The position numbers were made by a program, and so were the translations under genes. The notes beneath the pieces are model-generated. The model was given only the letters and a program-made list of their open reading frames with translations. It was not told where the DNA came from and ran no database searches. DNA of 64,000 nucleotides from Alteribacillus sp. YIM 98480 (GTDB taxonomy: Bacteria; Bacillota; Bacilli; Bacillales; Marinococcaceae), in the NCBI RefSeq assembly GCF_009765375.1, contig NZ_VTOK01000013.1, forward strand, positions 62,001 through 126,000, given 5' to 3'. Positions 26,344 through 62,915 of the stretch are shown one piece after another (position 1 is the stretch's first letter; every line of letters starts with the position of its first letter).

Positions 26344-26433
26344 CCGGCTCGACCTGTAAAAGGAAGCCGCTGTACGGTGGAATGAAAGAAGCCGTATGAC
26401 TGAATATGAAAAAGAAAAAGGAGGATGAGGCGC

Positions 26434-27219
26434 ATGCTTCGTTCGATGTACTCCGGCATATCCGGAATGAAAAACTTTCAACAAAAACTAGATGTCACAG
26501 GTAATAATATATCAAACGTTAACACGTTTGGTTTTAAAAAAGGAAGAGCAACTTTCAAAGACATGGTAAGCCAGCAAATAGCAGGTGCAACTGGCCCAGG
26601 GGAGAACCGCGGGGGTGTAAACCCAAGGCAGGTAGGATTAGGGACGCAGCTTGGAACAATCGATACGGTTCATACCCAAGGCAGTCTTCAAAATACAAAT
26701 AGGGAACTTGATCTTGGAATATCCGGAGATGGCTTTTTTCAAGTTGTGGATGGAGATCAAACCTTTTATACGAGAGCTGGCAATTTCTATTTAGATGAAG
26801 AAGGAGATATCGTAAATGGTGATGGCCTTTATTTAGATGGAGCAGGGGATATGAACATTCCTGCAACGGCAGAAAGCTTTAGTATTGGCGAAGAAGGCAC
26901 AATAACTTACGTTGATGAAAATGGAGACCTTCAAGATGCTGGTGAAATAGAAGTAGCCCAATTTGCTAACCCAGAAGGTTTACAAAAGTCAGGGGATAAT
27001 TTATATCAAGAAACAGAGAATTCGGGAGAGCCGGAAATCTCTAATCCTGGAGAGGATGGGGCTGGAACATTAGTAGCTGGCACACTCGAAATGTCTAATG
27101 TGGACCTTTCAGAAGAGTTTACCGAAATGATTACGGCACAACGTGGATTCCAGGCAAACACTCGTGGTATTACGACCGCTGATGAAGTCCTGCAAGAATT
27201 AATGAATTTAAAACGATAA
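26434..27219 (+). CDS. flgE: Flagellar hook protein FlgE (short Bacillus form)
   Basis: Structural subunit of the hook. It begins MLRSMYSGISGMKNFQQKLD with the axial-protein motif VTGNNISNVNTFGFKKGRAT and ends SNVDLSEEFTEMITAQRGFQ then ANTRGITTADEVLQELMNL. At 261 residues it matches the short FlgE of B. subtilis (about 264), which earlier was annotated flgG. ATG 26434 is used because AAGGAGGATGA lies about 9 bases upstream; the ATG at 26425 is too close to that site. Confidence 0.93.
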   Translation: MLRSMYSGISGMKNFQQKLDVTGNNISNVNTFGFKKGRATFKDMVSQQIAGATGPGENRGGVNPRQVGLGTQLGTIDTVHTQGSLQNTNRELDLGISGDGFFQVVDGDQTFYTRAGNFYLDEEGDIVNGDGLYLDGAGDMNIPATAESFSIGEEGTITYVDENGDLQDAGEIEVAQFANPEGLQKSGDNLYQETENSGEPEISNPGEDGAGTLVAGTLEMSNVDLSEEFTEMITAQRGFQANTRGITTADEVLQELMNLKR

Positions 27220-27235
27220 GGTATACATCCATTTA

Positions 27236-27285
27236 AAGAAGGAGGTTTGAGCCGGGGCGTGCTCCCGGCTCATCCATTACATATG
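27236..27285 (+). promoter_or_regulatory. Shine-Dalgarno and start of swrD separated by a 9-bp stem-loop
   Basis: AGAAGGAGGT (to 27246) is the only Shine-Dalgarno near swrD. Next comes a 9-bp stem, TGAGCCGGG (27248-27256) with CCCGGCTCA (27264-27272), loop of 7, and then 10 bases before ATG 27283. Folding the stem leaves about 11 unpaired bases between ribosome site and start, near the normal distance. Confidence 0.6.
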
Positions 27286-27495
27286 ATCCAATTAACAAAA
27301 TTAAACGGCCAAACCTTTTTACTTAATATTCCGTTGATCGAACAAGTAGAAGCTTTACCTGATACAACGATCACACTCATAAACGGCAAAAAACTAGTAG
27401 TGAGAGAAAATATAAAAGATGTTCATGACGCAGCAAACGCCTTTTACCGGAGAATCGGATTAATGGGGATAACAGTCAGGGAGGAGGAGCTTTAA
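27283..27495 (+). CDS. swrD: SwrD/FlbD family swarming motility protein
   Basis: A 70-residue protein of the FlbD family (YlzI/SwrD in B. subtilis, where it increases flagellar power for swarming). It begins MIQLTKLNGQTFLLNIPLIE and continues EALPDTTITLINGKKLVVRE, the diagnostic core. The homologous start is ATG 27283. The frame is open upstream from a TTG at 27247 and a GTG at 27259, but those would add residues absent from the family. The ribosome site is separated from the ATG by a stem-loop (see regulatory feature). It is followed by fliL after 2 bases. Confidence 0.9.
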   Translation: MIQLTKLNGQTFLLNIPLIEQVEALPDTTITLINGKKLVVRENIKDVHDAANAFYRRIGLMGITVREEEL

Positions 27496-27497
27496 TC

Positions 27498-27926
27498 TTG
27501 TTTCAAAATAAATTAGTCAACATCATGCTCATTATGATCATCTCAATTACCTTGATTGGGGTCGTTACATTAGTTTTAGTTAACTATTTTTCCGCACCGG
27601 AAGCCGGAGCTGAACCTACTATAGATGAAATTATAAATAATTCTTGGGAAACAGAAGAAATTACCACCAATCTGGAAGACAATCACTTTTTAAAAACACA
27701 GTTCCGCATCCATGTCGATTCAGGAAAGGCAAAAGATGAATTGGAAAAAAGGGATTTTCAAGTGAACAACTTAATTATCCATCAACTCGCAGGGATGTCT
27801 TCTTCTGATATAAAAACCCAGGAGGGAATAGAAGAATTAGAGTCTACCCTTCGCTTAAAAATCAATGACATTATGAACGAAGGCAAAGTCATTCGTATTT
27901 ATACAACAGAGAGATTGATACAATAA
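27498..27926 (+). CDS. fliL: Flagellar basal body-associated protein FliL
   Basis: Single-pass inner membrane protein that surrounds the stator and supports torque. The transmembrane helix is at about 8-30 (IMLIMIISITLIGVVTLVLV), and the C-terminal extracytoplasmic domain has ITTNLEDNHFLKTQFRIHVD and LRLKINDIM. The start is TTG at 27498 with GGAGGAGG about 8 bases upstream, inside the end of swrD. The length is 142 residues, normal for Bacillus FliL. Confidence 0.93.
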   Translation: MFQNKLVNIMLIMIISITLIGVVTLVLVNYFSAPEAGAEPTIDEIINNSWETEEITTNLEDNHFLKTQFRIHVDSGKAKDELEKRDFQVNNLIIHQLAGMSSSDIKTQEGIEELESTLRLKINDIMNEGKVIRIYTTERLIQ

Positions 27927-60800: not shown

Positions 60801-62915
60801 ATGAAAAAAATGAGAGTTTATGAATATGCGAAATCGGTTAATAAATCAAGCAAGGAAATAGTAGAACAATTAAAAAATATGGATGTGAACGTTTCAAACC
60901 ACATGTCTGTCATAGATGAAAACACTGTTGCAAAGCTGGAAGGAAAAACAAACAACAGTCAAGAGAATAAGCCAAAACCAGAAAATAAACAGCCTTCCAG
61001 CCAAAAAAGTGAACGAGGAGATAAAAAGAAAAATAATATGAATAAAACAAAAAAAGAGAACAACCAAAACAAACAAAATAAAAACAATGCAAAAAAAGGA
61101 AAAAAACATAAAAAAGACAATCGTCAGCAGCGCTTTCAAGATTCTAAACAACAACAAGCTGTACCAGAAAAGGTCACGTACAGCGGATCGCTGACTGTTG
61201 GAGAGTTGGCGGAGAAATTAAACAAGGATTCTTCAGAATTAATTAAAAAACTTATGTTTCTCGGGGTAATGGCAACCAAAAATGAAGATTTAGAAAAAGA
61301 AACCATTGAACTTATTGCAGAAGATTACGGGGTAGAAGTAGAAGAGGAAATAGAAATTGATGAACTTGGTATTGAAACGCAAGTCGAAGAAGACGATCCG
61401 GCTAAATTAGAAGAACGTCCACCTGTTGTTACAATTATGGGCCATGTCGACCACGGGAAAACAACACTATTAGATTCTATCCGTCATACAAAAGTTACCG
61501 CTGGAGAAGCAGGCGGGATTACACAGCATATTGGTGCCTATCAAGTAAGAGAAGACGGAAAAAAAATTACGTTTTTAGATACACCTGGTCACGCCGCTTT
61601 TACGACGATGCGTGCTAGAGGTGCTCAAGTAACTGATATTACTATACTAGTGGTTGCTGCAGACGATGGAGTTATGCCGCAGACAAAAGAAGCCATTAAC
61701 CACGCAAAAGCAGCTGAAGTACCGATTATTGTAGCTGTAAACAAGATGGATAAAGAAGGGGCTAACCCGGATCGAGTCATGCAGGAGTTAACAGAGTTTG
61801 AACTTGTGCCAGAAGCTTGGGGAGGCGACACTATCTATGTAAATGTTTCTGCTTTAAAAGGGGACGGCATAGATGAACTTCTGGAAATGATCTTACTTGT
61901 TGCCGAAGTAGAAGAGTTAAAAGCTAACCCTGATAAACGAGCACGGGGCACAGTGGTTGAAGCAGAATTGGATAAAGGACGGGGCCCTGTTGCTACGCTG
62001 TTAGTCCAAGAAGGTACAATGAAAGTCGGCGATCCAATCGTTGTCGGAAATACGTATGGAAAAATACGTGCCATGGTAAACGACCTAGGGAAACGTGAAA
62101 AATCAGCAGGACCGTCTACCCCCGTTGAGATTACTGGTTTAAACGGTGTCCCAAATGCAGGGGATCAATTTGTTATTTTTGAAGATGAAAAGAAAGCTCG
62201 TCAATTTGGTGAAGCAAGAGCAAACCGGGCTCGCGAAGAAGAAAGAAATCAAACATCGAAAGTGAGCATTGACGATTTATTTGATCAAATCCAAGAGGGC
62301 GACGTCAAAGAGATTAATGTTATTGTTAAGGCGGATGTGCAAGGCTCTGTCGAAGCAGTGAAAGGTTCTTTGGAGAAGATTAATGTAGAAGGCGTCAAGA
62401 TTAACATTATTCATGCTGGCGCTGGTGCCATTGCTGAATCGGATGTCATTCTTGCTTCTGCTTCGAATGCGTTAATTATCGGCTTTAATGTAAGGCCTGA
62501 TGCGAATGCAAAACGAACAGCTGAATCGGAAAAAGTTGACATTCGACTGCACCGTGTTATTTATGATGCCATTGAAGAAATTGAATCTGCCATGAAAGGT
62601 ATGCTCGATCCAGAATACGAGGAAAAAGTTATCGGGCAGGTAGAAGTGCGCCAGCTCTTTAAAGTATCTCGTATTGGAACTATCGCAGGGAGCTATGTAT
62701 TAGAAGGAAAAATTACAAGAGATTCTACCGTGCGATTAATTCGTGATGGTGTTGTCATCTATGAAGGAAACTTAAACGCGTTAAAACGGTTTAAAGATGA
62801 CGTAAAAGAAGTAGCTGCTGGGTATGAATGCGGGATTACGCTGCAAAATTATAACGATGTAAAAGAAGGCGACATTATTGAAGCTTACATCATGGAGGAA
62901 ATTAAACGCGCATGA
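60801..62915 (+). CDS. infB: Translation initiation factor IF-2
   Basis: GTPase that brings initiator tRNA to the 30S subunit and promotes subunit joining. N-terminal IF2-N motifs [20 protein letters not shown] and a second copy at [20 protein letters not shown] flank a lysine/asparagine/glutamine-rich linker (about 50-120). The G-domain P-loop [12 protein letters not shown] is near residue 214, with DTPGHAAF and NKMDK. C-terminal domains bind fMet-tRNA. ATG 60801 (MKKMRVYEY, 704 residues) has GGTGGAGG 8 bases upstream; in-frame codons at 60786 and 60795 lie on that site. Confidence 0.96.

Follow-up and report, generated by a model that had tools for sequence, protein, structure and literature searches.

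A looped-out hairpin probably splits the ribosome-binding site of swrD in Alteribacillus and many other Bacilli

We analysed the junction between flgE and swrD in Alteribacillus sp. YIM 98480 (contig NZ_VTOK01000013.1), which lies within a stretch of 64,000 nt (contig positions 62,001 to 126,000), referred to below as the window. The gene downstream of swrD is fliL. For the upstream gene we use flgE, which we take to be its name in B. subtilis, while the NCBIfam model that it passes is labelled FlgG. The nearest named relatives, ranked by SwrD identity, are Bacillus piscicola, Alteribacillus iranensis and Aliibacillus thermotolerans. The junction contains the following features.

26425 to 27219, forward strand: flgE, open reading frame with stop codon TAA at 27217-27219; passes NCBIfam FlgG NF009278 (433 bits, cut-off 350)
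27239 to 27246, forward strand: Shine-Dalgarno sequence (SD) of swrD, AAGGAGGT; anti-SD pairing -11.2 kcal/mol; last G 37 nt 5' of the ATG
27248 to 27256, forward strand: 5' arm of the predicted hairpin, TGAGCCGGG, with a G-U extension at 27257; from folding and covariation
27264 to 27272, forward strand: 3' arm of the predicted hairpin, CCCGGCTCA, with a G-U extension at 27263; from folding and covariation
27273 to 27282, forward strand: 10-nt linker from the stem to the start codon
27283 to 27495, forward strand: swrD (ylzI/flbD), 70 aa, ATG at 27283-27285; Pfam FlbD PF06289, 84.5 bits, above cut-off

The SD lies 19 nt beyond the flgE stop codon and is the sole strong SD for swrD; no second one at normal spacing was found in the window. 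An initial annotation of this DNA had named AGGAGGT as the only strong site and had placed 36 nt between its T and the ATG, and these coordinates are correct. The 9-bp G+C-rich stem that it had drawn across the gap was recovered with the addition of a tenth pair (G-U, 27257/27263), which closes the loop CGTGC. When the hairpin (27248-27272) is excluded, 2 nt on the SD side (27246-27247) and 10 nt on the start side leave 12 nt between the last G and the ATG, so that the near-normal folded spacing proposed earlier stands and only its value, about 11 bases, shifts with the way of counting. As to the start itself, SwrD aligns with its relatives from the first residue onwards in all 61 loci compared.

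The fold of the window alone is suggestive only, because a 101-nt segment containing the hairpin (-25.5 kcal/mol, z -2.2) was equalled by 4 of 200 shuffles; it is the comparative evidence that carries the structure far beyond chance. In this single-sequence fold the SD is predicted to be mostly paired (0.10 unpaired) with early swrD codons at 27307-27320, a pairing that is absent from the consensus fold of 15 aligned upstreams described below. An origin of the hairpin as a dispersed repeat or MITE was discarded, since the 8-bp stem core occurs at a single place in the 4.58-Mb genome. Neither the window nor 16 related loci gave an Rfam 15 match at the gathering threshold, and the best sub-threshold match within 27150-27400 was caiA (E 0.3; 20.5 bits against a gathering threshold of 55.5).

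Four samples of swrD loci were compared: 61 loci from named genomes; all 87 loci from the 87 swrD-bearing genomes among 101 (that of the window and 100 relatives); 27 new loci and 40 chosen for spread from 299 genomes of the class, 209 of which have swrD; and 30 loci from the genus of a B. subtilis-like genome, in which 44 of 44 genomes have swrD. By eye, most Bacillales-like rows show an SD, a hairpin and a start codon in that order, with stems that differ widely. Among 229 distinct swrD upstreams, from relatives that are not independent of one another, 149 have a far SD without a near one (far, -5.5 kcal/mol or better and at least 22 nt off; near, -5 kcal/mol or better), 62 have a near SD and 18 have neither; the stricter SD caller chose the wrong SD in three loci that look split by eye (L019, L102, L108), put L015, L133 and L150 in the near class and missed the giant hairpins of L028 and L034. 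The first 168 distinct upstreams, where the far class was defined by a strong SD at least 24 nt off and none near, gave 124 far, 37 near and 7 neither. Folding better than 95% of 300 dinucleotide shuffles was found for 106 of these 124 far cases (median z -3.7; p<=0.01 in 83); the other 18 failed this test.

The geometry of the far class is constant where its stems are not. A spacer fold with an energy of -8 kcal/mol or lower is predicted for 136 of the 149 far-SD upstreams, and in these the last G of the SD lies 1.9 +/- 1.25 nt from the stem and the stem 8.2 +/- 2.5 nt from the start codon. Raw spacing (37.3 +/- 5.8 nt, range 28-57) falls to 10.1 +/- 3.0 nt once the hairpin is removed; spacing in the near-SD class has a mean of 8.4 and a median of 7 nt. 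Raw spacing also rises with hairpin span (r = 0.88, slope 0.84): the bigger the hairpin, the further out the SD, as a looped-out spacer would predict. A split ribosome-binding site has an SD too distant from the start with no near alternative, a structure lying entirely between the two, and a working distance once that structure is excluded; we found the first in the window (37 nt) and in 149 of 229 upstreams, the second by prediction and covariation, and the third in the window (12 nt) and across the 136 hairpin-bearing upstreams. Predicted SD accessibility in these 136 (median 0.40 unpaired) is close to that of flgE and fliL (0.41 each; fliM 0.21), and predicted accessibility of the start codon is likewise similar to flgE and fliL.

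Stem conservation with covariation, which the initial annotation had set as a check on its proposal, is present. In a sequence-only alignment of 15 upstreams (A3), whose rows were hand-picked from the family of the window and for similar stems, the consensus fold is the swrD stem; at every one of its nine pairs at least one sequence is altered on both sides, and 94% of cells pair. The covariation score, 0.595, was reached by none of 500 shuffles (0.289 +/- 0.035), and sliding one arm against the other gave no more than 0.233. Further pair types were not in excess over shuffles in this alignment (229 of 500). A relative from the same genus (L065) provides an example, a G-C to A-U pair change in the stem. 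Two larger alignments were set aside: A2 (19 rows, genus Bacillus), in which MAFFT placed the stems of different subgroups out of register, was excluded from the covariation count, and A4 (54 rows), with mixed stem registers, was not used for a covariance model. Exchanging arms between sequences, a test that depends on no alignment, pointed the same way. For 87 non-redundant upstreams of the 124, own arms paired at -12.6 kcal/mol and swapped arms at -7.4 (z -20, 5000 permutations), while sequence by sequence the own arm came first in only 23 of 87 and within the top 5% in 39 of 87.

Compared with neighbouring genes, the layout is nearly confined to swrD. Under a strict rule (far SD at -7 kcal/mol or below, hairpin at -9 kcal/mol or below, near SD absent), a split was called in 112 of 188 swrD upstreams and, at the same loci, in 1 of 147 flgE, 0 of 159 fliL, 0 of 172 fliM and 0 of 49 fliY upstreams; 103 of the 188 swrD cases remained when nearby alternative starts also had to have no near SD. 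A flgD control (1 of 74 with a near SD, 0 split) was discarded because its query began inside the gene. A scan of the window listed five cases, of which swrD is the sole compact hairpin by eye; the other four were rejected by eye because their folds are branched or long or because other starts compete. The B. subtilis-like genome (G418), of which 1.6 Mb was scanned, gave 10 strict candidates among 13,133 open reading frames of at least 45 aa, and three of these, swrD included, lack any further start with an SD nearby. In 0.4 Mb of the genome of the window, swrD excluded, there were two candidates, one of which, a 49-aa open reading frame, has no competing start. A separate observation in the B. 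subtilis-like genome concerns a 433-aa open reading frame with a TTG start (L330:1612, forward strand), which is preceded by AGGGAGGTG, a 7-bp hairpin and 6 nt; because another of its starts has a near SD, this is a doubtful case.

The same comparison settles the start-site reasoning for swrD. Both TTG 27247 and GTG 27259 are in frame with swrD, as had been noted before, and the GTG lies 13 nt past the final G of the SD, which would allow translation to begin within the spacer and would turn the hairpin into coding sequence. Elsewhere this reading finds little room, and we regard it as highly improbable. In 91 of the 149 far-SD upstreams the stretch from SD to conserved start contains an in-frame stop codon, 123 of 149 retain no usable in-frame start before the conserved one, and an in-frame start 4-13 nt past the far SD occurs in only 8 of 149, the window included. 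At normal spacing past the far SD, a start codon in whatever frame is also seen in only 27 of 136 cases, against 67 after shuffling (ATG alone, 7 against 22), the control being a simple letter shuffle of the 15 nt 3' of the SD. Because of these in-frame stops and this scarcity of start codons, the far SD most likely serves the conserved distal start, as the initial annotation had assumed, and GTG 27259 appears incidental.

The split layout is widespread. By a loose rule it was called in 78 of the 87 swrD-bearing genomes (that of the window and relatives), with at least one split in 41 of their 44 families (none in f22, f26 and f32), in 28 of 30 loci of the genus of the B. subtilis-like genome and, among named loci, in 34 of 45 that are Bacilli-like and 1 of 16 from other phyla or MAGs; at class level this rule misfiles some rows as split (near SDs are seen by eye in L172, L173, L275, L277, L281, L283, L291 and L300), so that its use here beyond the named loci is restricted to the 87 genomes and the 30 loci from the genus. 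In the B. subtilis-like genome, TAAGGAGG is followed by 2 nt and then by a 10-bp stem with the loop GUAA, from which another 8 nt lead to the ATG. Two loci of the same genus with alike upstreams (L189, L191) have no junction hairpin, an 11-nt gap between flgE and swrD and a GTG start. Three Shouchella loci (L036, L037, L043) and four Thermotogota or Pseudothermotoga loci (L047, L050, L051, L054) instead carry a near SD, 8-9 nt off. Four class-level loci (L284-L287) lack a near SD and have flgE and swrD genes that overlap, by 1 or 4 nt, and translational coupling apparently takes the place of the split site there.

The largest departures are in Allobacillus saliphilus (L028) and A. salarius (L034), where an insertion in the loop puts the SD about 169 and 253 nt from the ATG. 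Their intergenic lengths are 175 and 259 nt, against 42 nt in A. halotolerans (L035), which has a short hairpin. Both keep the stem base and a 10-11-nt 3' linker, with the SD at the 5' foot. A 196-nt piece of the A. salarius junction, nearly all of it insert, has 30 matches in the A. saliphilus genome and 26 in that of A. halotolerans, partial matches included, because of which the insert looks like a mobile, multicopy palindromic element of MITE type; no multicopy insert was seen outside these two loci.

Translation of swrD probably proceeds from a split ribosome-binding site whose hairpin is looped out. Comparison across genomes establishes, at the level of sequence, a predicted fold with compensatory upkeep and constant geometry, shows no SD nearer to the start, and finds the layout almost nowhere in front of neighbouring genes. 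The looped-out spacer first suggested for this locus thus finds strong support in the compensation at all pairs, the advantage of own over swapped arms and the tracking of hairpin size by SD distance. The tail of 16S rRNA would pair with the strong SD on or soon after the flgE stop codon, the G+C-rich hairpin would remain folded and looped out, and the 30S subunit would see SD and ATG about 9-12 nt apart. The stem would then act as a structural spacer: its sequence, loop and length vary, but the distances from its base, about 2 nt to the SD and about 8 nt to the start, hold. We infer that the 30S subunit tolerates the hairpin in its folded state, that initiation gains from the folding and that the hairpin sets the dosage of SwrD; a dependence of swrD translation on RNA folding, proposed in the initial annotation, would follow from this geometry. 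A strong SD would suit B. subtilis, because this species is described as being without S1 and as tolerating structure poorly (PMC1805508).

Other roles of the hairpin have to be weighed against this split site. The SD core begins no more than 3 nt from the flgE stop codon in 47 of the 136 split cases, for which reason ribosomes terminating on flgE may compete with or feed swrD. A bolder version would make the site a widely kept device of Bacilli that couples swrD initiation to flgE termination: the terminating ribosome or its 30S subunit would sit on the SD and keep the base of the stem open, and swrD would start only once the hairpin snaps back and brings the start codon within reach. If so, a motor-power protein would be metered by translation of the hook gene through a hop over a hairpin and not by scanning, but we find this version doubtful. 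The same proximity to the flgE stop could also favour a regulator, either a protein or the ribosome finishing flgE, that acts on the hairpin and switches SwrD synthesis much as ThrRS does at thrS, where a hairpin within a bipartite site can act as an operator (PMC3858243). SwrD is also reported to be about 6-fold more abundant in swarming Paenibacillus polymyxa (PMC6878767), a point that is qualified by the near SDs of L293-L297, which we take to be Paenibacillus-like. Such a switch seems unlikely, given that the 136 split hairpins have loops of 3-15 nt with no common motif, the commonest loop sequence occurring in 4, and that the distance from stop codon to SD is not fixed (quartiles 1 and 15 nt). 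The earlier suggestion of control by a binding protein is unsupported, since the loops share no motif; nothing points to a sequence-specific binder across the class, and lineage-specific binders may exist.

The hairpin may also serve the flgE mRNA as an intercistronic element, in 3'-end stability, processing or the shielding of swrD from flgE translation, with SD placement secondary. Outside the far class, 26 of 43 upstreams with intergenic lengths of 35-200 nt fold better than 95% of shuffles, although these 26 include L028 and L133, which are splits by eye, and L061 from another phylum, and a hairpin stands 5' of a near SD in several Bacilli (L294-L297, L271, L281, L283, L162, L163, L169). 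As a substitute for the split site, this role is quite unlikely, because it leaves unexplained the shift of the SD with hairpin size, the 149 of 229 upstreams without a near SD and the fixed flanking gaps. The two roles could coexist, and since the hairpin elsewhere often lies 5' of a near SD, splitting the SD from the start is not its sole role everywhere. The junction hairpin may be older than the split and may also have a role in mRNA stability or insulation. That it terminates or attenuates transcription 3' of flgE is scarcely credible. The stem is G+C-rich and intergenic, and a T-run follows the junction hairpin in L162, L163 and L281, but there are no terminator-like sites at 26900-27600 of the window, TTTT lies close 3' of the stem in only 4 of the 136 split cases, and the window hairpin does not show the G+C-rich stem followed by a U-run of an intrinsic terminator.

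To our knowledge, few ribosome sites split by a hairpin are known in cells or phages. Our search of the literature on swrD/ylzI and on split or hairpin-interrupted sites, with most subscription papers and the SwrD discovery paper outside its scope, found no account of this element. The split site predicts that the motility protein SwrD is dosed at translation. Its presence in a B. subtilis-like genome offers a tractable host, and natural stems of many sizes, together with two loop insertions, provide material on how the 30S subunit accepts structure between SD and start.

Among described systems, the hairpin of E. coli thrS resembles that of swrD in interrupting an otherwise unstructured ribosome-binding site. 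The 30S subunit is reported to bind this bipartite site in one step, for which unfolding is not needed (PMC3858243, PMC3936740), and without S1 when the SD is made strong (PMC3858243). The thrS site differs in that its SD is weak, its upstream part is U-rich and its hairpin is recognized by ThrRS; the SD of swrD is strong, and its hairpins showed no conserved recognition sequence. The pseudoknot of E. coli rpsO is likewise a structured initiation region on the 30S platform, but it includes coding sequence and is described as needing S1 (PMC3858243), while the swrD element is a simple hairpin. The closest likeness is with genes 25 and 38 of phage T4, where the SD is also over-distant from the AUG and RNA structure restores a working distance; the intervening structure is reported to cut the SD-AUG distance from 27 to 11 and from 22 to 5 nt, and destabilizing it lowers initiation (PMC3014915). 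Gene 25 also shares with swrD an intercistronic junction, and its stem is reported to be kept in T-even phages. The T4 effect was demonstrated by mutation and DMS probing, whereas the swrD element is known from sequence comparison and predicted folds. Unlike the T4 genes, swrD is cellular, its raw spacing is longer (28-57 nt in the 136 cases and far more in the two with loop insertions), and its stems differ in sequence and are maintained by compensatory change. By anatomy, the swrD site would thus belong with split sites of the T4 gene 25/38 type, as a putative member kept across many Bacilli.
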